From a virus, in IMG/VR virus record IMGVR_UViG_3300025120_014603, positions 1-20,071 of that record: a DNA stretch of 20,071 nt. One strand, written 5' to 3'. Both the position numbers and the translations under genes were made by a program. Within the stretch, counting starts at the first letter, position 1. Each line of letters begins with the position of its first letter. The notes under the pieces are model-generated. The model made no database searches, had not been told where the DNA came from, and saw only the letters and a program-made list of their open reading frames with translations. Below, piece after piece: positions 1 through 19,926 of the stretch.

Positions 1-703
1 CACCGTCCTTGCTAAAAATGAATTTGTTTTCATTTGTTTTGGTAATATTGTAAGGTCCAAAAAATTTAGTTAAGTGCATGGTCTCTGCCATGGATTTTTG
101 ATCAATAGCAAATGCTTTTGTTTCTTTAATTACTTTGTTTGTTTGATCAAAATCATGTATTTCAAAAGATAAACTTTCTTGTTGACCATCTTTTTTTATG
201 GTCATTATGTTGTTATCTAATTTCATTTCCATCATATCGAAATTATCAAAGAATTTTTTAGTTTCGCCTATTCTTATACTTTGGATTTTTTGTGTATAAG
301 AGTCTGCATTATTTGGTAAAGCATTTAAATTTTCATCGATTGCATCTACAGGCATTGAACCTTTATGGTATGTGTAAGAAAAATTATCAATGTTCGTAAG
401 TTTTTTTAAATCTGTTAAAAACTCTTTAATGCTGTTACCTAGCATTTCGTCTCTTGGAAATTCTATAAAAACTCTATACTTGCCATCTTGCATTGTGCCT
501 GGAGTTGCATCTGCATCTAAAACTTTTTTAAAACCTTTTTCAGCAAAACTTTCTAAATCTTTTGCTCCTGCCTGTGAATTACATACAAAGGATACAACAC
601 ATACGTCTTGGTCCTCTCCCATTTTGCTTTTGTATTGATCCACAGAAAATTGTTTTTCAACAATACCTTCTAGATCACCTGCTTTTAGTCCTTCTGCTAT
701 CAT
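1..703 (-). CDS. Unknown phage protein, C-terminus beyond the window edge
   Basis: This reading frame starts at an ATG at 703-701 and stays open to the left edge, giving at least 234 residues. It begins MIAEGLKAGDLEGIVEKQ and is rich in Lys, Asp and Phe. I see no membrane segment, signal peptide or catalytic motif. The ATG overlaps the stop of the preceding gene as TAATG, so the two are probably translationally coupled. The N-terminal part (roughly residues 1-130) reads as a small alpha/beta domain, and the rest is a charged region. It looks to me like one of the small conserved proteins found near the head genes of T4-like marine phages, but that is memory of a pattern and not a match I can check. 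Function is unknown. Confidence 0.75.
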   Translation of the reverse strand, partial: MIAEGLKAGDLEGIVEKQFSVDQYKSKMGEDQDVCVVSFVCNSQAGAKDLESFAEKGFKKVLDADATPGTMQDGKYRVFIEFPRDEMLGNSIKEFLTDLKKLTNIDNFSYTYHKGSMPVDAIDENLNALPNNADSYTQKIQSIRIGETKKFFDNFDMMEMKLDNNIMTIKKDGQQESLSFEIHDFDQTNKVIKETKAFAIDQKSMAETMHLTKFFGPYNITKTNENKFIFSKDG

Positions 704-1146
704 TAAATATTTTCTTCTTCTGGCTCTTGCACGTTTGTACTGTGTTTGAAGTTTCCTATTAGTTCTTTAGGCATTTTTATTTCAACTACCCATATATCAT
801 GTGAATCTATTTTGCCTTTTACAGTGCCCGGTCTGTAGTCGTCTGGTTTTTTAATTGTTCGAGGTTTGAAAAGAATATCTTTTTTATAAGTGACTTTGCA
901 ACCTCTATCTAGTAATCTTTTTCCACCCGATGGGTCTGGCATTTGATCTTCTAGCCACATAAATGAACAAGTGACAAAATGACGAGAGTCAATAGGGCCT
1001 TCTAAAAGTTCCCCGTCTTCCCAATTTTTGAACACATAAACATCTAGTGCATCTATTACACGTTCAAAATCCTTTAATATACCTAGACTAGGCGATATAC
1101 TGTATAAAGACTGTACGTTACGGATTATGTTTAAAATATCATGCAT
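703..1146 (-). CDS. Conserved phage protein, possibly virion structural
   Basis: The product is 147 residues if translation starts at the ATG at 1146-1144 (MHDILNIIRN). A TTG further upstream at 1179 would add 11 residues, but nothing supports it. The centre has the pattern VYVFKNWEDGELLEGP, then RHFVTCSFMW, then MPDPSGGKRLLDRGCKV. This resembles a family of small proteins I associate with the head/portal region of large marine myophages; I cannot confirm it. The C-terminal 15 residues are acidic. No enzyme motif is visible. The stop overlaps the start of the next gene (TAATG). No good Shine-Dalgarno sequence precedes the ATG, but an ACTAAATA lies 5 bases upstream and is a weak variant of the late-promoter-like motif seen elsewhere in this window. 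Confidence 0.72.
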   Translation of the reverse strand: MHDILNIIRNVQSLYSISPSLGILKDFERVIDALDVYVFKNWEDGELLEGPIDSRHFVTCSFMWLEDQMPDPSGGKRLLDRGCKVTYKKDILFKPRTIKKPDDYRPGTVKGKIDSHDIWVVEIKMPKELIGNFKHSTNVQEPEEENI

Positions 1147-1267
1147 GAGTATATTTAGTTCAAAAATGCATAGCGACAATTATGCTATTATTACTTGTAA
1201 ATGTACTCAGTAAATACTTTTATCAAATGTCTCGAAATACAGACACATCTAAACACAAAATTAACCT

Positions 1268-1273
1268 AAAGGA
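1268..1273 (+). promoter_or_regulatory. Shine-Dalgarno for the basic plus-strand protein
   Basis: AAAGGA lies five bases before the ATG at 1279. It is the main reason for choosing this frame and start over the overlapping frame that opens at 1182. Confidence 0.5.
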
Positions 1274-1278
1274 TTCAT

Positions 1279-1506
1279 ATGCTATTTTACAACAGTCTAC
1301 AACTACGACCATTATATCAAAGAAAATTATGGAGGCAAATGAAGAAAAAACGGGTGTACGACAAAAGAGTAAGGTTGTACATACTAAATCAAAATTGGTT
1401 AAAGATAAGAAAACAAAAAGACAGGAGGAGAAGAAGAATTTTAACTAAGATATACAAAGCAAAAAGATCAGCATTTCTTAGACATAGATACGCAAATTTT
1501 ATTTAA
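1279..1506 (+). CDS. Small, highly basic protein on the opposite strand
   Basis: This is a 75-residue frame on the plus strand, against the direction of nearly all its neighbours. It is supported by a good ribosome binding site: AAAGGA at 1268-1273, five bases before the ATG. The product is extremely rich in Arg and Lys, including a run of five Arg near residue 50, and has few acidic residues, so binding to nucleic acid or an acidic surface is plausible. A second in-frame ATG at 1339 follows GGAGG by only three bases and could give a 55-residue form. It ends at 1506, overlapping the last three bases of the convergent gene that ends at 1503. A longer frame from 1182 overlaps it in another phase but lacks a comparable start site. 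Function is unknown. Confidence 0.45.
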   Translation: MLFYNSLQLRPLYQRKLWRQMKKKRVYDKRVRLYILNQNWLKIRKQKDRRRRRILTKIYKAKRSAFLRHRYANFI

Positions 1507-1766
1507 TTTTTTAAAAAACTATCAATTGCTTCAGCATAATACTTTTTGTAGTGTTGTTCTAATTTTTCATACTCAACCTGTTCTACTCCGGGTAACACAC
1601 ACTTTAAAACTTTTTTATTCAATAAATCTAATACAACTTTAGATTTTGTCATTTTTCCAGCACCAATTTTTTTCTTGCTTAATTCAACCACTTCGTCAAA
1701 TTTTTTATCAGGTTTCTGAATATAGTTGACAATAAGATATCTTTTTTTACTATGTTTAGTACCCAT
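1503..1766 (-). CDS. 87-residue conserved phage protein, unknown function
   Basis: I start this gene at the ATG at 1766-1764, which overlaps the stop of the membrane-protein gene upstream as TAATG. The frame stays open to 1979, but that extension would run across the whole neighbouring membrane-protein gene and looks spurious. The product starts MGTKHSKKRYLIVNYIQKP. It alternates short beta-strand-like stretches (YLIVNYI, KVVLDLL, KVLKCVL) with charged helices and ends in a Tyr-rich helix. I recall similar 'YLIVNYIQKP..KFDEVVE' proteins in T4-like marine phages, without a known role. It ends against the convergent plus-strand gene, with a three-base overlap. Confidence 0.75.
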   Translation of the reverse strand: MGTKHSKKRYLIVNYIQKPDKKFDEVVELSKKKIGAGKMTKSKVVLDLLNKKVLKCVLPGVEQVEYEKLEQHYKKYYAEAIDSFLKN

Positions 1767-2011
1767 TATGCTATCCAATTCCATATTGCTCTTAAGGCCA
1801 ATAGCAAATACATTAGTTCCATTAATGCTCTTGGAGTGTCGCCATCTTTGATACCCATATAAATCCATATAGAACAACTGCATGTAGCAATCGCCCAACC
1901 CATCCATTGTGTTTCCACATTGGCATTTGATAGTATAAATGCTCCTATCATGGCTAATAAAAAGCCCGTCCATCTCCAACCATCAATATCTTTGTAGTAT
2001 CTAATTTTCAT
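1766..2011 (-). CDS. Small inner-membrane protein (81 residues)
   Basis: The protein opens with a charged stretch (MKIRYYKDIDG). Two or three hydrophobic segments follow: about residues 16-29 (FLLAMIGAFILS), 38-52 (GWAIATCSCSIWIYM) and 62-79 (ALMELMYLLLALRAIWNW). It should sit in the host inner membrane. Its ATG is one base after the stop of another small membrane-protein gene, and its stop overlaps the next start as TAATG. The four genes from the clamp loader down to 1503 are therefore read as a chain. Proteins of this look recur in marine T4-like phages without a known function. Roles in host takeover or lysis control are guesses. Confidence 0.8.
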   Translation of the reverse strand: MKIRYYKDIDGWRWTGFLLAMIGAFILSNANVETQWMGWAIATCSCSIWIYMGIKDGDTPRALMELMYLLLALRAIWNWIA

Positions 2012-2012
2012 T

Positions 2013-2183
2013 CTACCACCAACCTAATATTCTTCCATTACCTATTATTATCATACTGCAAGTGAAAATGTGTAGAACTACCCAAAAAGTTCTAATTAGA
2101 GCAACTTGTTTATCGTAAGGTCGTGTTTTCTTATCTGAGAAACTGCCTAGGGCATACAACCAAACTTTTAACCAATTACGCAT
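2013..2183 (-). CDS. Small membrane protein (56 residues)
   Basis: I translated this short frame by hand. It starts at an ATG at 2183-2181 inside the end of the clamp-loader gene (ATGCGTAA, where TAA is the stop of gp44) and ends with TAG at 2015-2013, one base before the next ATG. The product begins MRNWLKVWLYALGSFSDKK. It has one clear hydrophobic segment (about residues 31-48, IRTFWVVLHIFTCSMIII) and ends NGRILGWW. The tight overlaps on both sides, the membrane segment and the lack of any other frame in this 165-base interval support it as a real gene. With its neighbour it forms a pair of small membrane proteins of unknown role. Confidence 0.75.
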   Translation of the reverse strand: MRNWLKVWLYALGSFSDKKTRPYDKQVALIRTFWVVLHIFTCSMIIIGNGRILGWW

Positions 2184-3102
2184 TTTGCAGTCTTGCTAGT
2201 TTTATCATAACACTTGCTAGATTTATTTCTGGATCTGCAACAAATGAATGATCAACTAGTCCTTGTTTGATTATTAGTATTGCTTTGTCTTGAGAGTCTT
2301 CGTCTTTGGATATGATTTCCAAGTTGTCATACAACCATCTAAATATTTCTTCACACTCTTCTGGTCTTGCTTGAGCACACACCAGTTTCCTTGCTTCATT
2401 TATTTTGCCTGCCTTGAATAGTTCAACCATTTTTAATCTGTAGTCCTGTTGATGTGAATCACCTTTAGCTGGCGCAACAAGTTTGCCGTCTCTGGTATTC
2501 ATTTGTACCATGTTAATACATTTTCTCAGATCCGGGTATGTAGCTTTTACATATGTGTCTAATGTGTCTATGTCCTGTTCAACTTTTTCTTCTATTAGTA
2601 TAGTGGCTACTCTAGCTGTAAATTCATTTTTGTCAATTGTTTCAATGTGAAAGCCTTGACATCTTGAATGAAGTGCAGGTATGACTCTGTTGGGATAGTT
2701 GCAAGTTAAAATAAATCTAGCTGATGTATGATACGTTTCCATCACGCCACGTAAGGCCGCTTGTCCGTTTGGAGTTATATAGTCTGCTTCATCTAGTAAA
2801 ACATACTTGAAAGCACCAAATGGCATGATTTGCACAAAATTTATAATTTTATCTCTTACTGTGTCAACACTGTTTTCTCTTGAAGCATTTATTTCAAGTA
2901 TGTCGTATGCATCTACTTTTAACTCTTGAAATAATATTTTAGCCAATGTAGTTTTACCCACACCCGGAGCACCAGAAAATAACAAGTGAGGAATAGCACC
3001 GTCTTTTATCCATGCTTGTATTTGCTGTCGTTGTTGATCATCTCTGACTACATAATCTTTTAATGTATCAGGACGATATTTTTCTACCCAAAGTTCTTTC
3101 AT
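2176..3102 (-). CDS. gp44: Sliding-clamp loader ATPase subunit (T4 gp44 / RFC-small type)
   Basis: This AAA+ ATPase loads the ring-shaped sliding clamp onto primer-template DNA for the replicative polymerase. In T4, gp44 acts as a tetramer with gp62. Starting at the ATG at 3102 (MKELWVEKYRP, the canonical RFC opening), the protein is 308 residues, close to T4 gp44 (about 319). Visible motifs are Walker A GAPGVGKT (44-51), Walker B LLDEAD (102-107), sensor 1 around FILTCNYPN (130-138) and the SRC arginine-finger motif (146-148). A C-terminal helical collar follows. The frame stays open to 3165, but those 21 residues precede the family start and lie inside the upstream gene. The start overlaps the phosphomannomutase-like gene by 35 bases. 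No gp62 or gp45 gene is recognisable in this window. Confidence 0.95.
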   Translation of the reverse strand: MKELWVEKYRPDTLKDYVVRDDQQRQQIQAWIKDGAIPHLLFSGAPGVGKTTLAKILFQELKVDAYDILEINASRENSVDTVRDKIINFVQIMPFGAFKYVLLDEADYITPNGQAALRGVMETYHTSARFILTCNYPNRVIPALHSRCQGFHIETIDKNEFTARVATILIEEKVEQDIDTLDTYVKATYPDLRKCINMVQMNTRDGKLVAPAKGDSHQQDYRLKMVELFKAGKINEARKLVCAQARPEECEEIFRWLYDNLEIISKDEDSQDKAILIIKQGLVDHSFVADPEINLASVMIKLARLQNA

Positions 3103-3793
3103 ATAATATATTTTTTGTATCCTTCCAATTGCTAACAGCATAACACGAACCACGTGCTTGGTCAATGATTACCTGTTTTAAAGGATAATCATTTCCATGC
3201 GTGTTCATTGCATCACCAAAAAAATGTAATGTATCATTTTGATCAAAGTCCTTGATAATCTGACTTTTGTTTGCACCCTTAGGAGCAATATCTATTCCTG
3301 TTTCTCCACCAACAGTGGCCTCTAACTCTGTAAACAGTTTATTAAATTTTTTGGAAATTGTTTCACGTTCCTTATTTGCAATATCCCATTCACGATATTT
3401 TGCACGTTGTTTTAGTGTGCATTTTCTACCTACTACACTGAAATTTAACATACAAGCACGTTGCTCTAGATGATTGCCTGTTTTTTCATTAAACTCACTT
3501 TCTTTTAGACAGGATTGCAAAAATTCACTTGCCCTTTGAGGTATGATCCAATTGTCACGTCTTATGTTTTGATTTTTTTCCCAAACATCACTGCCTGAAC
3601 AGTTGTAAACACGTTTGGCTAAATTGTAAATTTGTTCACCAACTTGTTCTATGGTTTTTTGTTTGTCACTGCCTGTGATTAGATATACATGATTTTCTCT
3701 ACAAAAATTTTTAAAAAAAACAGCAAAGTCTGAATCTATTGTTTGACGACTAGGAGTAAGTGTGCCGTCAACGTCAAATATAAATCTTTCCAT
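3068..3793 (-). CDS. Phosphomannomutase-like HAD-superfamily enzyme
   Basis: The 241-residue product matches the layout of eukaryotic-type alpha-phosphomannomutases (PMM1/PMM2, about 246 residues). These convert mannose-6-phosphate to mannose-1-phosphate on the route to GDP-mannose. HAD motif I is FDVDGTLT (6-13, nucleophile D7 and acid D9). Motif II is the T40-G-S-D segment. The substrate-cap signature NFSVVGR lies at 117-123, followed by an ER..I..KF helix. The motif III Lys is probably K176 in KGANKSQ. Motif IV is GDAMNTHGNDY (193-203). All expected catalytic residues are present. The start overlaps the stop of a 39-residue membrane peptide (TAATG), and the end overlaps gp44 by 35 bases. 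A host-derived role in sugar-nucleotide supply is likely, but a different phosphosugar phosphatase or mutase activity cannot be excluded. Confidence 0.85.
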   Translation of the reverse strand: MERFIFDVDGTLTPSRQTIDSDFAVFFKNFCRENHVYLITGSDKQKTIEQVGEQIYNLAKRVYNCSGSDVWEKNQNIRRDNWIIPQRASEFLQSCLKESEFNEKTGNHLEQRACMLNFSVVGRKCTLKQRAKYREWDIANKERETISKKFNKLFTELEATVGGETGIDIAPKGANKSQIIKDFDQNDTLHFFGDAMNTHGNDYPLKQVIIDQARGSCYAVSNWKDTKNILYERTLGRKISS

Positions 3794-3912
3794 TAACTTT
3801 GTAAGTAATTTAAAAATAGAACCAAACTGTAAAACAATAAACCAATAAGTCCTAATCCTGTCATTGCTTGTTTCACTGTTCTAAATGCTTTTGCTTTTTG
3901 TGATATTTTCAT
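3793..3912 (-). CDS. 39-residue single-span membrane peptide
   Basis: I found this short frame by hand between the ParB-like and phosphomannomutase-like genes. The ATG at 3912-3910 is preceded by a very strong ribosome binding site (AGGAGG followed by four A), which overlaps the stop of the gene upstream. The product begins MKISQKAKAFRTVKQAM, a basic amphipathic stretch, and continues with one hydrophobic helix (about residues 18-35, TGLGLIGLLFYSLVLFLN). It ends by overlapping the next ATG as TAATG. The positive-inside rule suggests a cytoplasmic N-terminus. Function is unknown. Its position between metabolic genes, four genes after cytochrome b in the same chain, makes an accessory role at the membrane possible but unproven. 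Confidence 0.7.
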   Translation of the reverse strand: MKISQKAKAFRTVKQAMTGLGLIGLLFYSLVLFLNYLQS

Positions 3913-3913
3913 T

Positions 3914-3922
3914 TTTCCTCCT
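3914..3922 (-). promoter_or_regulatory. Strong Shine-Dalgarno before the 39-residue peptide
   Basis: Read on the minus strand this is TAGGAGGAA, followed by AA and the ATG at 3912. It overlaps the TAG stop of the ParB-like gene. It is one of the best ribosome binding sites in the window and supports the very short gene as real. Confidence 0.6.
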
Positions 3923-4313
3923 AATGTAACATTGCTTGTAATACTGCCCAGTGTGCCACTATGCCACTGGTATCCAATTTGTAATTGAATTCTTTGTCTA
4001 TGTCTCTTAATAACTTGTTAACTTTTGCCATTGTAAGTCCAACCCTTACAGGAATTTGTAGTGCGTAAATTGTTTTTTTGTTTTTCTTTTTGGCGGCTTG
4101 TACTCTATGCCAACCATCTGCTAACACATAATATCCTGAATCTTTTATTGGAGTAACTAGTATAGGCTGGTCACTGCCTTCTCTAGCCAGTTTTGCAATC
4201 CATTTTCTTTTTTCTGTATTAAGAGGCCTTTCAACTCCTAGGCCCAATTCTGCAAGTGTAACTAATTTTTCGATTGAAACATGGCAGGGTATAGGTGTGT
4301 AATTATTTGCCAC
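3921..4313 (-). CDS. ParB/Srx-like domain protein
   Basis: The core resembles ParB-like nuclease / sulfiredoxin-like domains, which occur in chromosome-partitioning proteins, nucleases and phage DNA-modification factors. Around the middle it has QPILVTPIKDSGYYVLADGW followed by HRVQAAKKKNKKTI. This is close to the family's pattern of 'preference for a value, then a DGxHRxxAA' loop, with Trp in place of the second Gly/Asn. I choose a GTG start at 4313, because AAGGA sits five bases before it and it leads directly into [11 protein letters not shown], a typical domain opening. The frame stays open to an ATG at 4403, but that adds a Lys/Arg-rich stretch that overlaps the Zn-ribbon gene. Even with the GTG the overlap is 52 bases. 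The true activity is not visible from sequence. Confidence 0.72.
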   Translation of the reverse strand: MANNYTPIPCHVSIEKLVTLAELGLGVERPLNTEKRKWIAKLAREGSDQPILVTPIKDSGYYVLADGWHRVQAAKKKNKKTIYALQIPVRVGLTMAKVNKLLRDIDKEFNYKLDTSGIVAHWAVLQAMLH

Positions 4314-4510
4314 TCTTTTCCTTTTGGATAAGGTGCTTTTCTTAGTTCCCAATCTTTTACGTTGTTTTCTTTGTGCCATTCGTCTACGCATTTTGGACCA
4401 CAAAAAGGAATAATTTTTCTATGGTCGAATTTAGTATAGTATAAACTATCGAACCAGTAAACGCAAGGATAAAAGTTGGTTGCACATTTACCACATGTGA
4501 ACTCTGTCAT
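4262..4510 (-). CDS. Small Zn-ribbon-like protein coupled to cytochrome b
   Basis: The product is 82 residues. It has CGKC near the N-terminus (residues 6-9), one further Cys at 16, and CGPKC at about 37-41 followed by a helix (VDEWHKENN), so a Zn-binding fold of two Cys pairs is likely. Between them lies an aromatic-rich stretch ([16 protein letters not shown]). The ATG overlaps the TGA stop of cytochrome b as ATGA, the strongest form of translational coupling in this operon, so the two should be made together. I do not recognise a named family. It could be a DNA-, RNA- or protein-binding Zn finger. An assembly factor for the cytochrome is a guess based only on coupling. Confidence 0.8.
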
Positions 4511-5766
4511 TTTTTGGATTTTTTATAGAGGTGTATAGCCGCAGGTGGTGGTGTTGGTTTTTCTGTCCAACCCACAACAGGTGCAATTACTATGAAAAAC
4601 AAAAACCAATATGCTGTTCCTATTTGACTTAGAAGCACAAAAGGTTGCTCTGCTGGCATGGCTCCACAGTACATCAATAAGAAAAAGTCTGCTACCAATA
4701 TCCATACAAACTGTTTCCAGATTGGTCTGTAAATTGAACTTCTAATTTTACTAGTATCTAACCATGGTAGTAAACCAATTATACCGATTGCTGACACCAT
4801 TGCAATGACTCCACCTAGTTTGTCAGGTATTGCTCTCAGCACTGCGTACCAAGGTAAAAAGTACCACTCAGGCACAATGTGTGCAGGTGTCACTAGTGGA
4901 TTGGCTTTTATATAGTTGTCAGGGTGTCCAAGATAGTTTGGCATAAAAAATAAAAATGCCGCAAATATCAAAATGAAAACTAAAAATGCAAATAGATCTT
5001 TTGTTGTGACATAAGGATGAAAACTTATTGTGTCTCTGGTGTCTTTGGGTTCAACACCTGTTGGATTGTTTGAACCTGTCATGTGTAAAGCAATTACATG
5101 AAAAACAACAACACCTAATATTACAAACGCAATAAGCCAGTGTAACACATAGAATCTGTTTAGTGTTGGATCGTCAACTGCATATGCACCCCATAACCAA
5201 TATGTGATTGTTTCACCAACATATGGTATGGCACCAAATAAACTTGTGATAACAGTTGCTCCCCAAAAACTCATCTGTCCCCATGGTAGAGTGTATCCTA
5301 AAAATGCAGTTGCTACCATTAAGAAATAAATTATCAATCCTAAAATCCACATTAGTTCTCTAGGTGATTTGTAAGAACCAAAATACAATCCGCGGAACAT
5401 GTGAATATACACCGCAATAAAGAAGAACGATGCTAGGTTCATGTGCATGTACCTTATCAGCCAACCATAGTTGACATCACGCATAATTTTTTCAACACTG
5501 TCAAATGCGTCTGTGGTGGACGGTTTATAATGCATTCCTAATATTAGGCCTGTGATTATTAAACCCAACAAACAGAATGTCAATATTGCACCAAAACTCC
5601 AAAAGTACGACAAATTTTTTGGCACTTGGAAATCCAAGTACTCGTTCTTGAACATTCTAAATATAGGAAGTCTGTTGTCTAGCCAACCTAATACGCCTTT
5701 AAACGGTGATGTGTTTTCTGAAACTTTGTTTGTGTTTACTGGTTTATATTTTTTTTCTTCTTCCAT
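4507..5766 (-). CDS. petB: Cytochrome b, quinol-oxidising core subunit of the bc1 complex
   Basis: This is a full-length 419-residue cytochrome b of alphaproteobacterial/mitochondrial bc1 type, an integral inner-membrane protein that oxidises quinol and carries electrons through haems bL and bH. The four haem ligands are H108 and H122 (helix B) and H209 and H223 (helix D). Both pairs are 14 residues apart, which is the bc1 rather than b6f spacing. The Qo-site motif PEWY is at 299-302, with [19 protein letters not shown] at about 157-175. Qi-site positions H228, K256 and D257 match, as does LHMTGSNNP (227-235). About eight membrane helices fit the unsplit bc1 form. No Rieske or cytochrome c1 gene is nearby. 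It starts three bases after the co-chaperonin stop and ends with an ATGA overlap into the Zn-ribbon gene, so it is embedded in the phage operon. A host-derived auxiliary metabolic gene is the best reading. Confidence 0.97.
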
Positions 5767-5769
5767 ACA

Positions 5770-6216
5770 TTAATCATTACCTGGCAATTTTGTCATTTGT
5801 TTTGCACCACCCATGTTAATGTAACCAGCCTTTGATGCAACTTCATCCCCAGGATCATTTTCTGAAACAAGAAGAATGTCGTTTTCGTCTATCATTCTCA
5901 CTTCTAATTCAGTGTGTTGCTTTTTGACTTTGAACGCTCTTGACCATCTTCCATGTGCTACCATAACCCATTCGCCAACTTTTACATCTTTTTGTTGACT
6001 GCCAACAGCATACACTTTGGCCCATCTTGGGTGAATACCGTGATCTGATCCATCATCGTCGGGCATAATAATTCCGCCTTTGGTTTTTATTTCACCAAAT
6101 TTCATGTGCGATACCAATACTCTTTTCTTTAAAGGTACAATGTCATTTTCCACGGTCCATGTTTTTCCACCGTGTGATCCAAATCCTTTTGCTTGTAAGT
6201 CTTCTATCTGTCCCAT
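5770..6216 (-). CDS. gp31: Co-chaperonin, GroES / T4 gp31 type
   Basis: The 148-residue protein has the GroES beta-barrel pattern. NDIVPLKKRVLVSHMKFGEIKTKGGIIMPDD covers the first strands and the mobile loop that contacts GroEL, and AKVYAVGSQQKDVKVGEWVMVAHGRW covers the later strands. In T4, gp31 replaces host GroES so that GroEL can fold the large capsid protein gp23. The loop is extended compared with GroES (about 97 residues), and there is an extra N-terminal segment (EDLQAKGFGSHGGK) of the kind seen in T4-like marine phages. It begins two bases after the SGNH hydrolase stop, and cytochrome b follows three bases after its own stop. The same expression timing for the capsid chaperone and the respiratory subunit is implied. 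Confidence 0.9.
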   Translation of the reverse strand: MGQIEDLQAKGFGSHGGKTWTVENDIVPLKKRVLVSHMKFGEIKTKGGIIMPDDDGSDHGIHPRWAKVYAVGSQQKDVKVGEWVMVAHGRWSRAFKVKKQHTELEVRMIDENDILLVSENDPGDEVASKAGYINMGGAKQMTKLPGND

Positions 6217-6218
6217 TT

Positions 6219-6986
6219 TTATATTATATTAGTTTCTTTGTGTTTTGTCAATGTTCTATTAAACTGTGGTTCTAATAATTCTGCTAATTTTTCATGCCCT
6301 TTTACTCCAGGGTGACCGCCATCTATGGAAACAAGTTCAGGATTTTTCAACACATAGGTATCGTATGCGTCACCGTCAAAATTATAAAAATGTTCTTTGT
6401 CAATTTGTGCTTTAATTTCCAAAACTTCTCTATCTTTGCTATTGTGTTCACTTCCACAGCCGTTATACATAAGATAGGGTATATTATTCAATTTTAACAT
6501 TTCTTGTGTCTGTAAAATAATATTATATTGCCTAAATTCAATATGCTCATCATAGGCCAAAGGTCTGTTTTTTCTCTCATTGAACTCAATCATCATTCTT
6601 GATGCATTGTACTCTGTACGGCCAAATAAAGATCTATGATTAGGTATTTCTCGATATTGCGTAAATTCACCTTTGCTATCGTTTATATTCCAACTCATGT
6701 ATTCGCGTCTAAAAGCATGAGTCCATCCTATCAAAACAAACATGTTTTTTTTATCATTTTGCTGAATGTAAGTTCTTAAAGTTCTTGATATTGCTTCATT
6801 GCTATTACCATTACGGGCAAGATCAACATATTCAATACTTTTACTTTTTGCTAGATGGTAGCCTGCACTTTCATACGCAGGTACTTTTACAGATGCTAAT
6901 CCTTTTTGTGCAACTGGTTTATAGTCGTCCATAACTTTACTGTTATAACCGTGTGCAAAACTACATCCACAGTTTATTAGTTTCAT
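6219..6986 (-). CDS. SGNH/GDSL-fold hydrolase-like protein
   Basis: The 255-residue protein has the SGNH hydrolase blocks. Block I is NCGCSFAHG, with the candidate nucleophile S9. Block II is around LARNGNSNE (56-64), giving the Gly/Asn pair. Block III is replaced by VLIGWTH (84-90), with Thr where the family usually has Asn. Block V is DGGHPGVKGHEKLAELL (222-238), providing D222 and H225. Members cleave esters such as acetyl groups on lipids or polysaccharides, and many phage versions are uncharacterised. There is no signal peptide, so action in the infected cell or on the virion is expected. The gene starts just after the preceding stop (GAGTAAGTTCATG) and ends two bases before gp31. The altered block III makes activity less certain. 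Confidence 0.75.
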   Translation of the reverse strand: MKLINCGCSFAHGYNSKVMDDYKPVAQKGLASVKVPAYESAGYHLAKSKSIEYVDLARNGNSNEAISRTLRTYIQQNDKKNMFVLIGWTHAFRREYMSWNINDSKGEFTQYREIPNHRSLFGRTEYNASRMMIEFNERKNRPLAYDEHIEFRQYNIILQTQEMLKLNNIPYLMYNGCGSEHNSKDREVLEIKAQIDKEHFYNFDGDAYDTYVLKNPELVSIDGGHPGVKGHEKLAELLEPQFNRTLTKHKETNII

Positions 6987-6990
6987 GAAC

Positions 6991-7359
6991 TTACTCTATA
7001 CCGTCAAGTGCGGCGTCAATGCCTGATTTTGTTGCTTTTGATTTTACTGGTTCAACTTTTTTTGTTACTGCTGGTGCAATTGGCTTAGGTTGTGGAGCCA
7101 TTTTTTGTTTAGGTGGTGGAGTTTTAATTCTTGGATTGTCCTGAGCCCTGCCTTTAGGAGTTTGGTAATATTCTTTCATTACTTTTTCCTTAGGTTTAAC
7201 TATTGTGCCACTTGGGCCTAAAACGTCACCTCTTGCATTCACTCTCATGTTTCCTACTGCTTGAACATTTTCGTTAGCGCCTCTTAATTTTTCTATGTCT
7301 ACCATACGCCCTTGCATGGTTCTATACATTTTTCTTCTTGGTGCTCTGCTTATTGGCAT
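6991..7359 (-). CDS. Basic, Pro/Lys-rich phage protein, unknown
   Basis: The 122-residue product has a structured N-terminal half (PISRAPRRKMYRTMQGRM, then IEKLRGANENVQAVGNMRVN and RGDVLGPSGTIVKPKEKVM). A low-complexity second half follows, rich in Pro, Lys and Ala and probably disordered, with a short acidic tail (GIDAALDGIE). The basic first half and charged tail resemble small head or scaffold-associated proteins of T4-like marine phages, but I cannot name a gene. It has a clear ribosome binding site (AGGAG, nine bases before the ATG) directly behind a late-promoter-like AATAAATA, so it may open a transcription unit that runs into the SGNH, gp31 and cytochrome b genes. Confidence 0.75.
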   Translation of the reverse strand: MPISRAPRRKMYRTMQGRMVDIEKLRGANENVQAVGNMRVNARGDVLGPSGTIVKPKEKVMKEYYQTPKGRAQDNPRIKTPPPKQKMAPQPKPIAPAVTKKVEPVKSKATKSGIDAALDGIE

Positions 7360-7372
7360 AATATTATTCTCC

Positions 7373-7380
7373 TATTTATT
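7373..7380 (-). promoter_or_regulatory. Candidate late promoter AATAAATA before the basic protein
   Basis: On the minus strand this reads AATAAATA, one base away from the T4 late-promoter core TATAAATA. It lies 13 bases before the ATG at 7359, with AGGAG in between. It is the nearest such site upstream of the gp31-cytochrome b segment. Confidence 0.5.
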
Positions 7381-7387
7381 TTACTTA

Positions 7388-7909
7388 TCATCTTAAAAAT
7401 TCACGATAATCTAAATTATATAACAATGGGTTTATTTTATGTACTCCTATCAAAAACAAACAAAAACTGCTAACTGATGATCCTCTTCCTACACCCCATA
7501 CTACATTATTTGCCCTTAGTGTATCTACAAAATAAATTAAAAATTGCAATACTTTCGAAAAACCTTTTTGTTCAAAAAGTTTATATTCTATTAGTACTCG
7601 ATCTCTTTCTTCTTCAGTGTTGGTCTTGTCTAACAAATATTGTTTTACATCTAAATTTGTGTATGATTCGGGCATACTCCATTGGTCATAGTTTGCTTTG
7701 TCAAAATCATTAATTGATTGTTTGTGTGCAATAATATTTGGTAATCGAGGAAGATCAATCTCTAATTTTTCTAGTGCTTGATTGTATAGACTTGATTCAA
7801 TTTGTATTTTTGAAATATCTAGTTTTGGATTTTGATAAACAAGATCTATGACAGCGTCTTCACTGTACACACAATCACCATAATCATTTATTTTTATGTT
7901 TGTCACCAT
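7388..7909 (-). CDS. Short DnaE-like fragment (C-family DNA polymerase, palm/thumb-adjacent part)
   Basis: The second half of this 173-residue protein matches the bacterial replicative polymerase DnaE. RVLIEYKLFEQKGFSKVLQF corresponds to the 'RLxYELxVIxxMGF' segment, and GVGRGSSVSSFCLFLIGVHKINPLLYNLDYREFL (139-172) corresponds to the GPGRGS...GITDIDPL...FERFL nucleotide-binding region. It stops right there, before the motif that carries the catalytic aspartates, and has no PHP, finger or OB domain, so it cannot be a polymerase by itself. The end is a clean stop; I see no frameshifted continuation in the 28 bases that follow. It overlaps the gene upstream by 26 bases. It may be a nucleotide- or DNA-binding remnant put to a new use. 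Confidence 0.75.
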   Translation of the reverse strand: MVTNIKINDYGDCVYSEDAVIDLVYQNPKLDISKIQIESSLYNQALEKLEIDLPRLPNIIAHKQSINDFDKANYDQWSMPESYTNLDVKQYLLDKTNTEEERDRVLIEYKLFEQKGFSKVLQFLIYFVDTLRANNVVWGVGRGSSVSSFCLFLIGVHKINPLLYNLDYREFLR

Positions 7910-8528
7910 CTAAAACCTTTGGATTAAATTCAAATATTTTAGCATGTTCTTGGTGCTCAGTGTCAATCTTTTCTGGCTCACTGTAGTTGTGCCATCTATA
8001 ATGGCCTGTATAAATTCCTTTGTCCAAAATTTTATCATAAGTTGCTGTGTCCGATCTTAACCACCATGGATCAAACTTATTATACTTGGTTGGAAACCAA
8101 TTGTCAACGTCTAACAACTGTATTTCTGGTCCTTCTTTTACAATACTGTATGTAATACCATCGCCTTGGTAACTGCTCAGTTCTAGTTCTTTGACCACAA
8201 TTTTGCCTTCTAGTACAGCGTTTGATTTAGTAAAGCAAACTGCGGCCATTAATTGATCATAAGGCTGTCTTGGTAATTGAACAAATCTATTGTTTGTTTC
8301 TTTGTCTAAAATTTTATAAAGTTTTTCTTCCTTACTGGCAACGATTGTATTAGCAAACACATTTTCAAAAAGCAGTTTTAGTCTTTCGAAATAATTTGCT
8401 TGTTCTGGTAAATCTGTTGTTAAAGGTGTTATGTGTAATTTTATAGAGTATTCATTATTAAACAGTTCATTGTCCACAACAATGATACTCTTAAACTTTG
8501 TAGTCCAACTAAATCTTTTTTTTGACAC
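7884..8528 (-). CDS. Unknown phage protein (214 residues)
   Basis: The frame opens with a GTG at 8528 (MSKKRFSWTTKF) and lacks a clear ribosome binding site. The product is acidic, with many aromatic residues. Examples are IVVDNELFNNEYSIKLHITPL early on, and DVDNWFPTKYNKFDPWWLRSDTATYDKIL then YTGHYRWHNYSEPE in the last third. No membrane segment, Zn site or catalytic motif is evident, and I do not recognise the family. It overlaps the DnaE-like fragment by 26 bases and follows the small coiled-coil gene after 10 bases. It lies between tail genes and replication-related genes, so context does not settle its role. Confidence 0.7.
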   Translation of the reverse strand: MSKKRFSWTTKFKSIIVVDNELFNNEYSIKLHITPLTTDLPEQANYFERLKLLFENVFANTIVASKEEKLYKILDKETNNRFVQLPRQPYDQLMAAVCFTKSNAVLEGKIVVKELELSSYQGDGITYSIVKEGPEIQLLDVDNWFPTKYNKFDPWWLRSDTATYDKILDKGIYTGHYRWHNYSEPEKIDTEHQEHAKIFEFNPKVLDGDKHKNK

Positions 8529-8538
8529 GTAGTAATTA

Positions 8539-8793
8539 TTATTCTACGTTTATCAATTCGCCAAGATCTGGCTCGCCTCTATTTTTTTTGTTTGTGTCAA
8601 TCCAACCTTTGAGTCTTTTCTGTTTTAAGGTTTGTTGATAAGATAAAAGTGCTTTTTGTAGTTGCCCTTGAAGGTCAGGATTTCTTCCGAATCTTCTTGC
8701 ACTGGCTAATTTTTTGGTAAGTTCACGAATCCTGTTTCCAAGATCTTCTTCCTTCATGTTGTCTAGTTCTTCTTGTAGGGGATGAAAGTACAT
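8539..8793 (-). CDS. Small coiled-coil protein of the tail region
   Basis: The 84-residue product begins MYFHPLQEELDNMKEEDLGNR and is almost entirely helical and charged through residue 60, with a heptad-like pattern of Leu and Ile (IRELTKKLASARR, LQKALLSYQQTLKQKRL). A disordered tail follows. It has an excellent ribosome binding site (GGAGG, five bases before the ATG). Short proteins with this 'HPLQEEL...L..KI.ELT.K' pattern are frequent in T4-like marine phages, without a firm function. A small assembly or bridging protein of the tail is a guess. It directly follows the last of the adhesin-type genes. Confidence 0.75.
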   Translation of the reverse strand: MYFHPLQEELDNMKEEDLGNRIRELTKKLASARRFGRNPDLQGQLQKALLSYQQTLKQKRLKGWIDTNKKNRGEPDLGELINVE

Positions 8794-8809
8794 TGGTACC
8801 TCCTAACTA

Positions 8810-9373
8810 TTATGAGTGATAATCACCTAATTGGTGCATGTACACAGTTGTTCCGGCATCAGTGGTCATAAACTCCCACATGTATCTGCCAACTCCTGGA
8901 TTTACAGTAACTGACGAACCATCTGCGCCTGTAACATTAGTTGCTTTTCTTACAGCACTTGGTACTGTAATTGCTGTTACACTTGCTCCAACAGTCGCTA
9001 GTATTATGATTCTTCCTAATCTTCCTGAAGTTGGAAAATTACTAAAAGCTAAACTACAATTACCAGTTATACTTGCAGTTTGAAAATTACCGTTTTCATG
9101 ATTTAAAGTTAATGTACCGCTTGACACTGTGCCCTGAGCATAAACTATTTCTGCTGAATCTTTTGTGGCCATTCTTGATACAATGTTATCTGAAAAATCG
9201 GAAGCCGCGTTAGTTGATGCTTTATTGGCCTGTAAGTCTGTTATTTCTGAAGATGCAGTTGTAAAATTATTTTTTACTGCTGTAAAATTGTCTCTAAAAC
9301 CTTGTGAGGAATTGTCCTGTCCTGCTATAGGAAAGGTGCCATCTATATTACCTGGTACTATTGAACTTGCCAT
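8810..9373 (-). CDS. Tail fibre-type protein with diverged N-terminal anchor
   Basis: The 187-residue protein opens PGNIDGTFPIAGQDNSSQGF followed by RDNFTAVKNNF. This is a variant of the 'NDGTGD..R.A..K.N.NF' anchor used by the larger proteins of this cluster. Residues 37-75 are helical linker. The rest is Ser/Thr/Gly-rich and beta-type, with no repeated NGTG modules, and it ends VGRYMWEFMTTDAGTTVYMH. It is probably a short virion fibre or a collar-type protein. AAAGGA lies 11 bases before the ATG, inside the stop region of the Ig-like gene (the TAATAA overlaps the leader). A GATAAATA is 28 bases upstream of the start. Confidence 0.8.
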   Translation of the reverse strand: MASSIVPGNIDGTFPIAGQDNSSQGFRDNFTAVKNNFTTASSEITDLQANKASTNAASDFSDNIVSRMATKDSAEIVYAQGTVSSGTLTLNHENGNFQTASITGNCSLAFSNFPTSGRLGRIIILATVGASVTAITVPSAVRKATNVTGADGSSVTVNPGVGRYMWEFMTTDAGTTVYMHQLGDYHS

Positions 9374-9379
9374 ATTTTA

Positions 9380-11665
9380 TTACGTCCTTTTAAACGCTAC
9401 GTATTTATCTCCAATTCGTTCCACACGTATCTTACTTGTAGCAGAAGGAGCATTGGTAAATGTAATTGTAGTTTTTTTATTACTAGTATTGTGAGATAAA
9501 CTGAATCCCGGTTCGTAATCTGCTGATCTTGTTAATGAATCTGCTGATAGATATGTAGGATCAAGCGTGTTATCCGCTGTGACTTGCTGTCCATGATTTA
9601 AAACAGTGGCATTTTCTCTTAACCTAATTTCCTCTTCATTTACAATTTCATTCATAGTAAATGTCACTGTTGAGCCGTCAGGTGTAATTGTGCCTGTATC
9701 TATTAAATTGATATCTGTCGTGTATCTATCTATTTTAAAATTTATTTTCTTAAAGTCGATCAGTTTATCTTGTATTCTTTTTTTGACAAGTCCTGATTTA
9801 CCCACTTTACAGTATGCTATAGCTACTGCCATTGTGTAACCTAAAGGCACACCTGAACTATCTTGTGCTGTTCTCATCCATAATGGTAAATGCACAAACT
9901 CTTTTTCTCCAAGTTCTTTTATGTGAGCCCTCATGTCCTTGATTACTTTGTTGGCTGGATCATCTTGCATTTCAAGATATACCACTTCATATTTTGTAGT
10001 GCTATTTTGTTTTGCCACAGCAGTTTTTAAATTACCAAAATAGACATCGGTCAATGGATGTTTTGTTTCCATCTTGTTTTGCAATGTGGTCAAAGTTTGA
10101 TGTTGTAAACCTGCAACCAATAACATATCAGGAGTACTTCTTATTCCAAAATTAGGATCTTCTGGTCTAAAAATATTTTCTACACTGTTGATATTAGGAT
10201 CCTGTGCAATGTTATAAAAAAGATCACGATCGGTTTCTGGAACAAGTCCTTTGGCAGTAAGACTACCATATTCAACACTGTAAGGTAAACTTACTGAAAG
10301 GGTAAATTCTTTTGTTGAAGCAACTGTTTGATACTGATCACTAACTGTAACTGTAAAAGTGTAATTTCTATCTATGCTTAAAGTGTTAGTATCAAATGTA
10401 ATTTCGTTACCGTCAATTGTTGTAAATTCTGTTTTGTCTATGGTTCCGATTAAGTTTCCTGTTCTCGAAAGAGTAAGACCTGTGGGCAAACTGCCTTCTG
10501 TAATGTAATATTCTAAAACTCTATTAGTCTCTGCGGCAGTGGCTTCTATAGATAATAAAGTAGGAAATCCTGCGGTGACTGTGCCAAGCTCTGGAGATGT
10601 TGTAAAATTAACACCTACATCAATCTCACCTATTACAGTCATAGTAAATGTACGTTCTGAAAATACAGTTAGTCCGTCAGTAGGAGTTCTTGATGCACGT
10701 ATTGTAAAACTGTAATTTACTGATACCAAACTCTGTGTTGGTAAAGTTCCAAATATTTCGCCGTTGTTTGAATTTAAAGTTAAGCCTGTCGGTAGAGATC
10801 CTGAAACAATTGAATAATAAAAATTTTCTTCTAATGAATCTGGATCTGTAACATCAATTTTTATTGCAGTCCTGTTGTCATGCCTAAATGTGCCTAACGC
10901 AGAAGGTGTAGTAAAAATAGGTCTTCGGAAACCACTTAAACTCATAATCAAAGGGAATCCTTCGTATGTGGTTCCGTCTATTGTCAACCTAGTGTTGTCA
11001 ACTTTAAAAAAATCAGCGGTGTATACAAAAATACTATTAACCTGTTCTACGGTAGATGATCCGTCTGATACCCGTACAGTAAATTCAAAGTTTTCTGCTC
11101 TACTTGAAGTTTTGGTGCTAGAGTCATCTCCAAAAACGTTAAATCTTTGTTCGTCAGTGAGTTCTACCTGTCCATAGACTAGACCTGTTGTGTTCATTTG
11201 CACTCCAGATGGTAAAGAACCTGATACGATATCATATACTAAACTTTTTCCTGTTGCTGTATCTATGTCAGATGCTTGTATTTGATATTCTATGTATGCT
11301 CCATCTAAGACCCATTTAAAACCAACCCTTGATGAATCACTTAAATCTAGTTGTCCTGACGCTGTAGAAAAGGTTGGAGCGTCTTGTCCTTGAACTTGTA
11401 AATTGAAACTTCTATCAGCAACATTATTGCCATCGGAGGCTCTTACAACAAAAGTGTAAAGAGCTCTTGTTGGTACCTCCGTTGGCACACCTTGCAGAAC
11501 GCCTCCGCTAGTAAGTTCAATTCCTGTGGGTAGAGTGCCTGCTATTTTGGAATAAGTTAAGTCATCGCCATCACTATCAGTTGCTGATAATGTTACCGAA
11601 TAAAAATCACGCTCGTTAATTACTCCTAACAAGCCTGCTGTTGTTTGCCAGACGGGTGCGGCCAT
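9380..11665 (-). CDS. Large virion protein with four Ig-like (He_PIG-type) repeats
   Basis: The product has 761 residues. The N-terminal 460 carry four cadherin/He_PIG-like units. Each has the pattern 'Y.I..G.LP.G(I/V/L).L....G.(I/L).G', at about residues 43-60, 148-166, 288-307 and 391-408, and each is preceded by T/D-rich strands such as ATDSDGDDLTY. These beta-sandwich folds are common in phage adhesins and surface-binding virion proteins. The C-terminal 300 residues form a different domain, with LLVAGLQHQTLTTLQNKM, LPLWMRTAQDSSGVPLGY and an FKIDRYTTDI beta-rich end. It may be the baseplate- or fibre-attachment part. AAAGGAG precedes the ATG, and a GATAAATA lies 24 bases upstream. Confidence 0.88.
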   Translation of the reverse strand: MAAPVWQTTAGLLGVINERDFYSVTLSATDSDGDDLTYSKIAGTLPTGIELTSGGVLQGVPTEVPTRALYTFVVRASDGNNVADRSFNLQVQGQDAPTFSTASGQLDLSDSSRVGFKWVLDGAYIEYQIQASDIDTATGKSLVYDIVSGSLPSGVQMNTTGLVYGQVELTDEQRFNVFGDDSSTKTSSRAENFEFTVRVSDGSSTVEQVNSIFVYTADFFKVDNTRLTIDGTTYEGFPLIMSLSGFRRPIFTTPSALGTFRHDNRTAIKIDVTDPDSLEENFYYSIVSGSLPTGLTLNSNNGEIFGTLPTQSLVSVNYSFTIRASRTPTDGLTVFSERTFTMTVIGEIDVGVNFTTSPELGTVTAGFPTLLSIEATAAETNRVLEYYITEGSLPTGLTLSRTGNLIGTIDKTEFTTIDGNEITFDTNTLSIDRNYTFTVTVSDQYQTVASTKEFTLSVSLPYSVEYGSLTAKGLVPETDRDLFYNIAQDPNINSVENIFRPEDPNFGIRSTPDMLLVAGLQHQTLTTLQNKMETKHPLTDVYFGNLKTAVAKQNSTTKYEVVYLEMQDDPANKVIKDMRAHIKELGEKEFVHLPLWMRTAQDSSGVPLGYTMAVAIAYCKVGKSGLVKKRIQDKLIDFKKINFKIDRYTTDINLIDTGTITPDGSTVTFTMNEIVNEEEIRLRENATVLNHGQQVTADNTLDPTYLSADSLTRSADYEPGFSLSHNTSNKKTTITFTNAPSATSKIRVERIGDKYVAFKRT
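9402..9409 (-). promoter_or_regulatory. Candidate late promoter GATAAATA before the short fibre gene
   Basis: On the minus strand this reads GATAAATA, 28 bases before the ATG at 9373, with AAAGGA in the leader. It lies inside the end of the Ig-like gene. Confidence 0.4.
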
Positions 11666-11689
11666 ATTGAACTTACTCCTTTACAAGGA

Positions 11690-11697
11690 TATTTATC
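11690..11697 (-). promoter_or_regulatory. Candidate late promoter GATAAATA before the Ig-like gene
   Basis: GATAAATA on the minus strand, 24 bases before the ATG at 11665, with AAAGGAG between. It lies in a true intergenic gap of about 45 bases. The spacing gives a normal leader with a ribosome binding site. Confidence 0.5.
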
Positions 11698-11710
11698 GTG
11701 GTTTTAAATA

Positions 11711-13495: not shown

Positions 13496-13501
13496 TTGCA
13501 A

Positions 13502-13509
13502 TATTTATT
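13502..13509 (-). promoter_or_regulatory. Candidate late promoter AATAAATA, 6 bases before a fibre gene
   Basis: AATAAATA on the minus strand, with only TTGCAA between it and the ATG at 13495. If it works like a T4 late promoter (start about 6 bases downstream), the transcript would begin at or next to the start codon. Confidence 0.5.
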
Positions 13510-13538
13510 GTATAATTCTACAAACCTAATGTAAAAAA

Positions 13539-14828: not shown

Positions 14829-14831
14829 ACT

Positions 14832-18257: not shown

Positions 18258-18264
18258 GTACGGG

Positions 18265-18272
18265 TATTTATT
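18265..18272 (-). promoter_or_regulatory. Candidate late promoter AATAAATA, 7 bases before the giant adhesin
   Basis: AATAAATA on the minus strand, followed by CCCGTAC and the ATG at 18257. It lies in the 40-base gap between two fibre genes. The start of transcription would be expected next to the start codon. Confidence 0.5.
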
Positions 18273-18297
18273 GGATTTTTAATATGATAAGCAAGCC

Positions 18298-18792
18298 TTA
18301 GCCTACGCTTACTTTGAGATCTGTGCCGGATCTAAACAGTCTACCGGCTACATTGGGATCTGACGTAGGTAATGCAGTAAAATTTATTTGTGCGTTTAAC
18401 ACAGTCAAACTGCCATCTACAACAAGGCCATCATTGATATTAATTGTGGTAGAATCTGAAGAACTAATTGATGTGCCATTTATTGTCACAGCACCTAAAA
18501 CTATCTGTCCTGTACCGTTTGCTGTAATTGTTACATCACCATTGGTCACTGTACTTGTAATAGCAGAATCAGTGATAGATAATTTATCCACTTCAATAAT
18601 ACCTGTGCCGTTTGGCTGAAGTATCAAATTTCCGTTTGTTTTAGTTGGTGTAATCAACCCAGTGTCTAAGTCAGCTCCAACCAGACTGTAAAGCTCGTCA
18701 AAATTAGAATTAACCTTGAGCATGGCGCCTCTAAGAGTGTCGCCTGTGGCTGGATTTCCTGCTGTGCCTGTGTCTATGTTTTGTTTTGACAT
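18298..18792 (-). CDS. Short tail fibre-type protein (164 residues), NDGTGD family
   Basis: The product starts MSKQNIDTGTAGNPATGDTL, a slightly changed anchor (NPATGD in place of NDGTGD), and keeps NFDELY near residue 35. It has two shaft modules (TNGNLILQPNGTGIIEV and TNGDVTITANGTGQIVL) and the shared GTSISSSDSTTININDGLVVDG. It ends with LPTSDPNVAGRLFRSGTDLKVSVG, a short tip common in marine phage fibre proteins. This is the minimal version of the family: an anchor, two modules and a tip. It is the first adhesin gene in transcription order and has two AATAAATA motifs upstream, so it may lead the unit. Confidence 0.87.
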   Translation of the reverse strand: MSKQNIDTGTAGNPATGDTLRGAMLKVNSNFDELYSLVGADLDTGLITPTKTNGNLILQPNGTGIIEVDKLSITDSAITSTVTNGDVTITANGTGQIVLGAVTINGTSISSSDSTTININDGLVVDGSLTVLNAQINFTALPTSDPNVAGRLFRSGTDLKVSVG

Positions 18793-19146: not shown

Positions 19147-19926
19147 TTAAGGTCGCAAAGAGAAAACAAAAAATGACCTAGGGTCTCTTGGATTTTCTAT
19201 GAATTTTTGTAATTGTGCGTAGTGCGTACCGTACATATTTTTTTTACTATATTTTATATAGTGCGGTAATAGACTATTTCCTTTGATGTATTCTTTTCTG
19301 TTAATTAGATAAAAATTTGATTTAGGAAACTGTCTTGTTATTTGACAAAGTTGATACATCCATTCAAATTTGAGATATGCTTTCATATTCATTCTTTCCG
19401 GATAGTTGTCAGAATTTTTATATATGTTATTTTGTTTTCTAGAAGCCAATCCCATGTCTTGCCGCCATTGTTCAGCACCCAACATATCAAAAGCAATTAC
19501 AAATATGTGTTTAAAACCTTTTTCTGCCGCGTCCAGCACAGCACTCATTCCAGAGCCACGTGCTTTAGAAAGATCTAGAGTTCTCCAAGTGTTACGTTTA
19601 GAGTCACCACCTACCCATGTTCTATAAATTCGCAAGCCCAAAGGCATGGCATTTGCAGGATCACCAGCAACCATGTAGTTCCATTGACTAATATCCTTTG
19701 GTCCAATTATTTCTGCCTTAAAATTTTTTTCTTTTTTTCCTTGAATTAATTCTTCGTACATGGGTTGATTGACTGCAAATATTTTGTCACAAAGGTCTGG
19801 CAAATCTCTGTAAATTGCGTTACAGCCATAAATTGAACCATGACTTTTCAATCTACTAAGGTCTCCAAAAATTTGACGGCTTTCTCCGTTGCCAATTACG
19901 AAACAAGTTTCATCTTTTATTGCCAT
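19147..19926 (-). CDS. Rossmann-like protein, DUF115 / sialyltransferase (CST-I)-like
   Basis: The 259-residue protein opens TCFVIGNGESRQIFGDLSRL and continues GSIYGCNAIYRDLPDLCDKI followed by FAVNQPMYEEL. This is the pattern of a nucleotide-sugar-binding Rossmann fold (G-N-G-x-S, then a 'x-G-x-N-x-x-Y' strand) seen in DUF115 / MptE-like proteins and in CST-I-type sialyltransferases (family GT42). The middle has GSGMSAVLDAAEKGFKHIFV and AFDMLG, a second Rossmann half, and a Tyr/Asn-rich stretch (NNIYKNSDNYPERMNMKAYLKFEWMY). I infer a sugar-transfer role acting on the virion, DNA or host surface. It lies between the Fe-S carrier (three bases apart) and the adhesin cluster. Confidence 0.72.
   Translation of the reverse strand: MAIKDETCFVIGNGESRQIFGDLSRLKSHGSIYGCNAIYRDLPDLCDKIFAVNQPMYEELIQGKKEKNFKAEIIGPKDISQWNYMVAGDPANAMPLGLRIYRTWVGGDSKRNTWRTLDLSKARGSGMSAVLDAAEKGFKHIFVIAFDMLGAEQWRQDMGLASRKQNNIYKNSDNYPERMNMKAYLKFEWMYQLCQITRQFPKSNFYLINRKEYIKGNSLLPHYIKYSKKNMYGTHYAQLQKFIENPRDPRSFFVFSLRP

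Follow-up and report, generated by a model that had tools for sequence, protein, structure and literature searches.

The PMM gene and its place in the window

The window, that is, the whole stretch of DNA that we analysed, is a 20,071-base virus record from IMG/VR. On its minus strand the ORF at 3068-3793 is complete, running through 241 codons from ATG to stop, and the plus strand across the same positions is riddled with stops. An earlier note on this DNA, made from the letters alone, had placed here a full-length phosphomannomutase (PMM) of 241 residues without stating the strand; the gene is real, of that length, and lies on the minus strand. The features of the locus on which our analysis draws are the following.

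2176..3102, minus strand: large subunit of the sliding-clamp loader (gp44-like); the first ~35 bases of the gene overlap the 3' end of the PMM gene
3068..3793, minus strand: gene of the alpha-PMM family (PF03332), a probable phosphosugar mutase of 241 aa (ORF, Pfam, PDB match, model and tree)
3793..3912, minus strand: 39-aa ORF immediately upstream of the PMM gene; its TAA overlaps the PMM ATG (TAATG)
3921..4403, minus strand: 160-aa protein, weakly similar to ParB; a conserved gene that flanks the variable PMM site on the side away from the clamp loader
4507..5766, minus strand: full-length cytochrome b, a second, independently variable cargo gene (PF00033, PF00032, PDB)
19147..19926, minus strand: NGES-motif protein; about one third of the viral loci examined have a homologue of it upstream of PMM

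The stop/start overlaps on both sides indicate that the PMM gene is built like a translated gene of a phage operon, and its GC content is 0.34 compared with 0.36 in the neighbouring genes. The earlier description of the surroundings as a replication block holds for one flank, where the clamp loader adjoins PMM, but not for the other, which is occupied by the weakly ParB-like protein, cytochrome b and a GroES-like protein.

Comparison with related phages revealed that the site is variable. In L002, which comes from another metagenome, a PMM 95% identical to that of the window occupies the same place and cytochrome b is absent. Conversely, L003 and L004 carry cytochrome b (96-98%) and lack PMM at the site: L003 keeps the end of the 39-aa ORF and, in the interval from the 160-aa gene to the clamp loader that houses PMM in the window, shows just a 27-aa ORF, and the whole 172-kb record of L004 is without PMM. 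PMM and cytochrome b are each single-gene cargo, gained or lost independently in otherwise syntenic phages. As phages closely related to that of the window have no PMM at this site, the gene is a swappable cargo beside the clamp loader, and its absence from L003 and L004 rules it out as a core gene of the window's phage. That same absence would fit host contamination or a decaying passenger, but we regard this as highly improbable, given that the gene sits between phage genes on one contig, has a GC content like theirs, and is full length, no catalytic residue having been lost across a deep clade; the copy at the same place in L002 and the viral clade described below largely refute it.

The second cargo gene, a cytochrome b of the bc1 type ~0.7 kb from PMM, matched PF00033 (1.2e-69) and PF00032 (2.4e-40), had a proteobacterial bc1 cytochrome b as its best PDB match (6e-141) and keeps the four haem His positions and PEWY. 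Other bc1 subunits were not found near it; it sits among phage genes, with a GroES/gp31-like co-chaperonin (5770-6216, minus strand; PF00166 4e-9, phrog_931) directly upstream. Its relatives occur in 59 other viral loci (L003-L061), whose contexts are of at least three kinds; in two of these they adjoin apparent ribonucleotide reductase genes (NrdA/NrdB-like and NrdJ-like, judged by eye). The protein had no PHROG match, its relatives among 50,697 phage records were confined to one Helicobacter phage record, and the nearest one among 240 alphaproteobacterial genomes was 66% identical. We found no description of a viral cytochrome b in the literature searched, and it looks more surprising than PMM.

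Elsewhere in the window, the gene at 19147-19926, which the earlier note had called glycosyltransferase-like, could not be confirmed as such: it has no Pfam match, and its low-confidence model gave no significant fold match. At 7388-8528 (minus strand) a 214-aa ORF is accompanied by a 173-aa piece that resembles a section of DNA polymerase III alpha (PF07733; phrog_11127, full length). The piece is short, but its family is conserved, and it may come from a polymerase that was split or be a domain that was captured. Four consecutive proteins at 11711-18792 (minus strand) have internal repeats and a common N-terminal motif of the type NxGTxxNDGTGDxLRxAxxKxNxNFxELY, and are probably tail-fibre or virion surface proteins.

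Family and predicted fold

The window protein matched PF03332 with an E value of 7.1e-25 and 88.6 bits, against a Pfam cut-off of 22.4, in an alignment spanning residues 26-231 (positions 4-216 of the 221 of the model). In the profile search against this and related HAD families PF03332 was the best, in agreement with the PMM assignment made earlier, and Hydrolase_3 was far weaker. Among the NCBIfam models HAD-SF-IIB scored above its cut-off and no phosphatase equivalog came near its own, with 14.8 bits for T6PP (cut-off 68), 26.9 for Cof (cut-off 137) and 12.3 for phosphoglycolate phosphatase (cut-off 122.8). The HAD and PMM cap motifs reported as intact were all found: DVDGT (7-11), NFSVVGR (117-123) and GDAMNTHGNDY (193-203). 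Human PMM1 was the best PDB sequence match (8.7e-25), and the protein matched PHROG 29277 (3.9e-88), which carries no function.

We also examined the AlphaFold model of the protein, built from 78 homologues (pLDDT 93.4). The best 24 Foldseek matches in the PDB were all eukaryotic PMMs or the Lactococcus alpha-phosphoglucomutase (alpha-PGM), with E values of 1e-16 to 1e-21; IMP nucleotidase and trehalose-6-phosphate phosphatases ranked much lower (1e-10 or weaker). The predicted structure includes the PMM-type IIB cap fold. The earlier note had named a better phosphatase match or a model without the PMM cap as results that would count against it; we found neither, and the NCBIfam scores together with the Foldseek ranking rule out a phosphatase family as the better match.

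Active-site residues and a change in the substrate pocket

To compare individual residues we aligned 88 viral proteins with eight from Flavobacteriales, six bacterial alpha-PGM-like proteins, three other phage proteins, the lactococcal alpha-PGM and four eukaryotic PMM segments from PDB alignments; residue roles were taken from PMC5736207 and family knowledge. Fourteen positions, in the numbering of human PMM1 (hPMM1), were invariant in all 88 viral copies: D19, D21, T23, R28, S54, K58, R132, N137, S139, R143, R150, D190, N225 and D226. In the window protein the nucleophile and the acid/base Asp are D7 and D9, the residues R16, R112, R123, R130 and D168 correspond to hPMM1 R28, R132, R143, R150 and D190, and GDAMNTHGND is the GDxxxxxGND motif.

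Two positions of the pocket departed from hPMM1 in every one of the 88 viral copies, with Thr in place of I187 and Gly in place of S188 (Gly166 in the window). Gly at the S188 position was absent from all the groups outside the viral clade sampled in the alignment. In a docking study the phosphate of the ligand is bound by a patch that lies opposite the Mg2+ site and includes S188, M186 and R150; the same patch holds Man-1-P in structure 2FUE (PMC5736207). The viral proteins and human PMM1/PMM2, both PF03332, are alike in the fold including the cap, in the DxDGT(L)TP.R and GND motifs and, for PMM1, in R132/R143/R150/D190 and S54/K58, but they share only 28-32% identity, and the viral copies are set apart by the I187 to T and S188 to G exchanges and by being phage-borne. 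The Lactococcus lactis alpha-PGM (PDB 4bnd) has the same fold (Foldseek 3e-17) at 23% identity, but carries Lys at R28 and R150, Gln at R143, Thr at S188 and Asn at D190, and falls in the outgroup of the tree.

As read from the alignment, the mutase machinery appears intact; the substrate pocket carries one change, common to the whole clade. Because Ser188 of the distal phosphate patch is replaced by Gly, we place the window protein in the alpha-PMM family and do not name it a strict phosphomannomutase (EC 5.4.2.8). The Gly and Thr exchanges could reflect a changed substrate or a phosphatase.

Distribution and phylogeny

At least 536 viral contigs encode relatives; the gene is common in marine viruses and not peculiar to one phage. 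Among the 50,697 phage records, close relatives were found only in the cyanophages S-SSM7, S-SSM6a and P-TIM68. Their proteins, which belong to PHROG 29277 and are annotated as hypothetical only, are 48-50% identical over ~95%, fall in the same clade and have the same TG exchange, but their gene neighbours differ from those of the window. Distant relatives (23-25%) occur in Acinetobacter and gut phages, and a DNA-level search with positions 1-12000 of the window found no isolated relative.

In the bacterial genomes sampled PF03332 was rare, being present in 3/296 Bacteroidota, 4/398 Pseudomonadota and 1/14 control genomes (Lactococcus only). It was found in 11/12 genomes of one streamlined marine Flavobacteriales family, of which 8/12 also keep the usual bacterial PGM/PMM. 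The proteins from Flavobacteriales (L145, L147-L150, L155, L169-L175) are the nearest cellular relatives, at 41-45% identity; unlike the viral copies with their Gly, they keep Ser at the S188 position (GG-E/Q-ISID), and their genes are chromosomal, in a conserved non-sugar context.

In a maximum-likelihood tree the viral copies formed a single clade with a long stem (support 100/100) that joined the marine Flavobacteriales (96/99), and this pair in turn grouped as sister with eukaryotic PMM, to the exclusion of the bacterial alpha-PGM-like proteins (100/100). The term eukaryotic-type, applied to the gene in the earlier note, is thus apt for the lineage, but there was no sign of a recent eukaryotic transfer: the 100/100 clade, its long stem and its junction with Flavobacteriales rule out recent capture from a eukaryote.

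Neighbouring genes at viral PMM loci

We counted the genes on the same strand within 2.5 kb of PMM at 86 viral loci. An HldC/TagD-like nucleotidyltransferase was present at 40 of them, always on the same strand and usually overlapping PMM (median overlap 7 bases), a GT8-like gene at 31, an NDP-sugar epimerase at 30, KdsA at 11 and an NDP-sugar dehydrogenase-like gene at 4. There were two main settings. The order in group A is DNA polymerase, (cupin), HldC/TagD-like nucleotidyltransferase, PMM, NDP-sugar epimerase, 242-aa protein and 517-aa protein, while that in group B is NGES-motif protein, QueD-like, (KdsA), GT8-like, (2OG oxygenase), PMM and UvdE. The nucleotidyltransferase also adjoins PMM in the group-B virus L117. 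In Acinetobacter phage Ab1-TPeters (L152, 3520-4738) a distant PF03332 protein (23% identical) lies directly downstream of an HldC-like nucleotidyltransferase 59% identical to that of the marine viruses, an independent recurrence of the pair. In the window no recognisable sugar-nucleotide gene adjoins PMM. Downstream of PMM, group A viruses encode a ~510-aa protein (cluster 8; in L106 at 8330-9880, with relatives) that has no Pfam or NCBIfam match but contains a DSGGFQ motif like that of tRNA-guanine transglycosylases, and that is possibly connected with DpdA-like DNA modification.

The best equivalogs of the nucleotidyltransferase were rfaE_dom_II (heptose-1-P adenylyltransferase) and then glycerol-3-P cytidylyltransferase, all below cut-off, and PDB profiles favoured cytidylyltransferases. 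For the epimerase the best equivalog was heptose_epim, also below cut-off; its type is ambiguous between HldD and GalE, and its PDB matches favoured dTDP-glucose 4,6-dehydratase. The roles of HldA, HldC, HldD and KdsA are well established, HldA being the kinase that makes heptose bisphosphate. Both complete PMM cyanophages, P-TIM68 and S-SSM7, encode HldA-like and HldC-like genes and nucleotide-sugar epimerases, that of P-TIM68 being HldD-like. Their cassettes (L203, 3474-6823, in P-TIM68; L204, 5001-9159, in S-SSM7) consist of an HldA-like kinase, an HldC-like adenylyltransferase, an epimerase, a cupin and a small HAD protein, and represent a nearly complete phage ADP-heptose route. A 112-aa protein of P-TIM68 annotated as phosphoheptose isomerase weakly matched a capsule biosynthesis phosphatase family instead.

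The partnership between PMM and the HldC-like gene is not obligate, since Vibrio phage pv27 has an HldC-like gene (78% identical) and no PMM, and HldC-like genes occur in many cyanophages without PMM, as do most of the heptose cassettes in cyanophages. PF01467 was present in 11/16 PMM-carrying records vs 6/12 PMM-free viral records, a weak excess. On these grounds, and with the equivalog cut-offs missed, we did not accept the heptose pathway as a proven context. A paper on pelagimyophages describes small clusters, of two or three genes each, in which rfaE and UDP-glucose 6-dehydrogenase occur, and its account of those clusters names no PMM-type enzyme (PMC7029224). Our literature searches found no paper joining phosphomannomutase, auxiliary metabolic gene and phage; four papers mention phosphomannomutase together with cyanophage, but the enzyme is in the title or abstract of none of them.

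These neighbours would also suit a sugar-(bis)phosphate phosphatase with the PMM fold, for example a GmhB-like (heptose-1,7-bisphosphate) or KdsC-like (Kdo-8-phosphate) enzyme of a viral inner-core pathway: KdsA (11 loci), HldC-like and HldD-like genes are among them, and the HldA-like kinase of both complete PMM cyanophages would be a source of bisphosphate. Human PMM1 has bisphosphatase activity (PMC5736207), and no viral copy retains the pocket Ser. We nevertheless consider a phosphatase unlikely. All 88 viral copies, diverged as they are, keep every mutase arginine and the equivalent of K58, even though phosphatases with this type of cap are not known to require a second phosphate site; both the fold and the sequence are far nearer to mutases; and the cyanophage heptose clusters work without PMM and have a small HAD phosphatase-like gene of their own.

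We searched 16 PMM-carrying records, two complete genomes included, for PF00483, the family of ManC, GalU and RmlA. It was absent from 15 and gave one weak match in the remaining record, and the search thus revealed no virus-encoded GDP-mannose cassette. Synthesis of GDP-mannose or fucose, the role offered in the earlier note, is not borne out by this search or by the pocket residue, which is changed in every viral copy. An ordinary phosphomannomutase/phosphoglucomutase could still raise the host's supply of GDP-mannose (or UDP-glucose) with the help of a host nucleotidylyltransferase. HldC/TagD-type enzymes, the usual partner at the viral loci, are not known to accept hexose-1-phosphates, and this, the missing viral ManC/GalU-type partner and the clade-wide S188G/I187T exchange speak against such a role, which we regard as possible but doubtful. 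It is in keeping with the epimerase and NDP-sugar dehydrogenase-like genes that adjoin PMM in some viruses, and with the closest characterised relatives, which are PMMs that also act on glucose (PMC5736207); it would be a special case of the explanation that we favour.

Proposed function

From the family, predicted fold, residues, clade and neighbourhood we infer a mutase rather than a phosphatase activity. The window gene probably encodes an intact phosphosugar mutase (alpha-PMM, HAD with a type IIB cap) that feeds host-envelope or virion glycans, its sugar being a hexose or a heptose. The PMM mechanism runs through a bisphosphate. In the window protein, Asp7 would take up the phosphate and Asp9 would act as acid/base, with Mg2+ held at Asp7/Asp9/Asp194, while the cap with Arg16, Arg112, Arg123, Arg130 and Asp168 would grip the sugar together with its second phosphate. 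The reaction would convert a sugar-6(7)-phosphate to the corresponding sugar-1-phosphate, and back, via the bisphosphate. The sugar-1-phosphate would then be activated by a virus- or host-encoded nucleotidyltransferase and the activated sugar used during infection to alter host-envelope or virion glycans.

Both a hexose and a heptose are compatible with the Ser-to-Gly pocket change and the HldC/HldD-like neighbours. Mannose is a possible substrate but is not singled out: the GDP-mannose partner is missing, the pocket residue is changed, and the neighbours are of heptose, Kdo or glycerol-phosphate type. A more specific and quite improbable version is that the viral clade is phosphoheptomutase-like, converting heptose-7-phosphate directly to heptose-1-phosphate ahead of HldC-like activation and HldD/GalE-like epimerisation; if this were true, one phage enzyme with an S188G pocket would replace the kinase and phosphatase steps of the bacterial ADP-heptose route.

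On this phylogeny, the alpha-PMM lineage termed "eukaryotic" also comprises a branch that lies deep among viruses, and its presence in bacteria is narrow. The invariant exchange in the pocket may be a sign that the substrate is a sugar phosphate of a kind other than mannose phosphate, and the genes next to PMM suggest remodelling of envelope or virion glycans by marine phages through small sugar-nucleotide cassettes of their own. The mutase proposed here offers a testable function for PHROG 29277, a hitherto unannotated family encoded on hundreds of contigs of marine viruses and by cyanophages.
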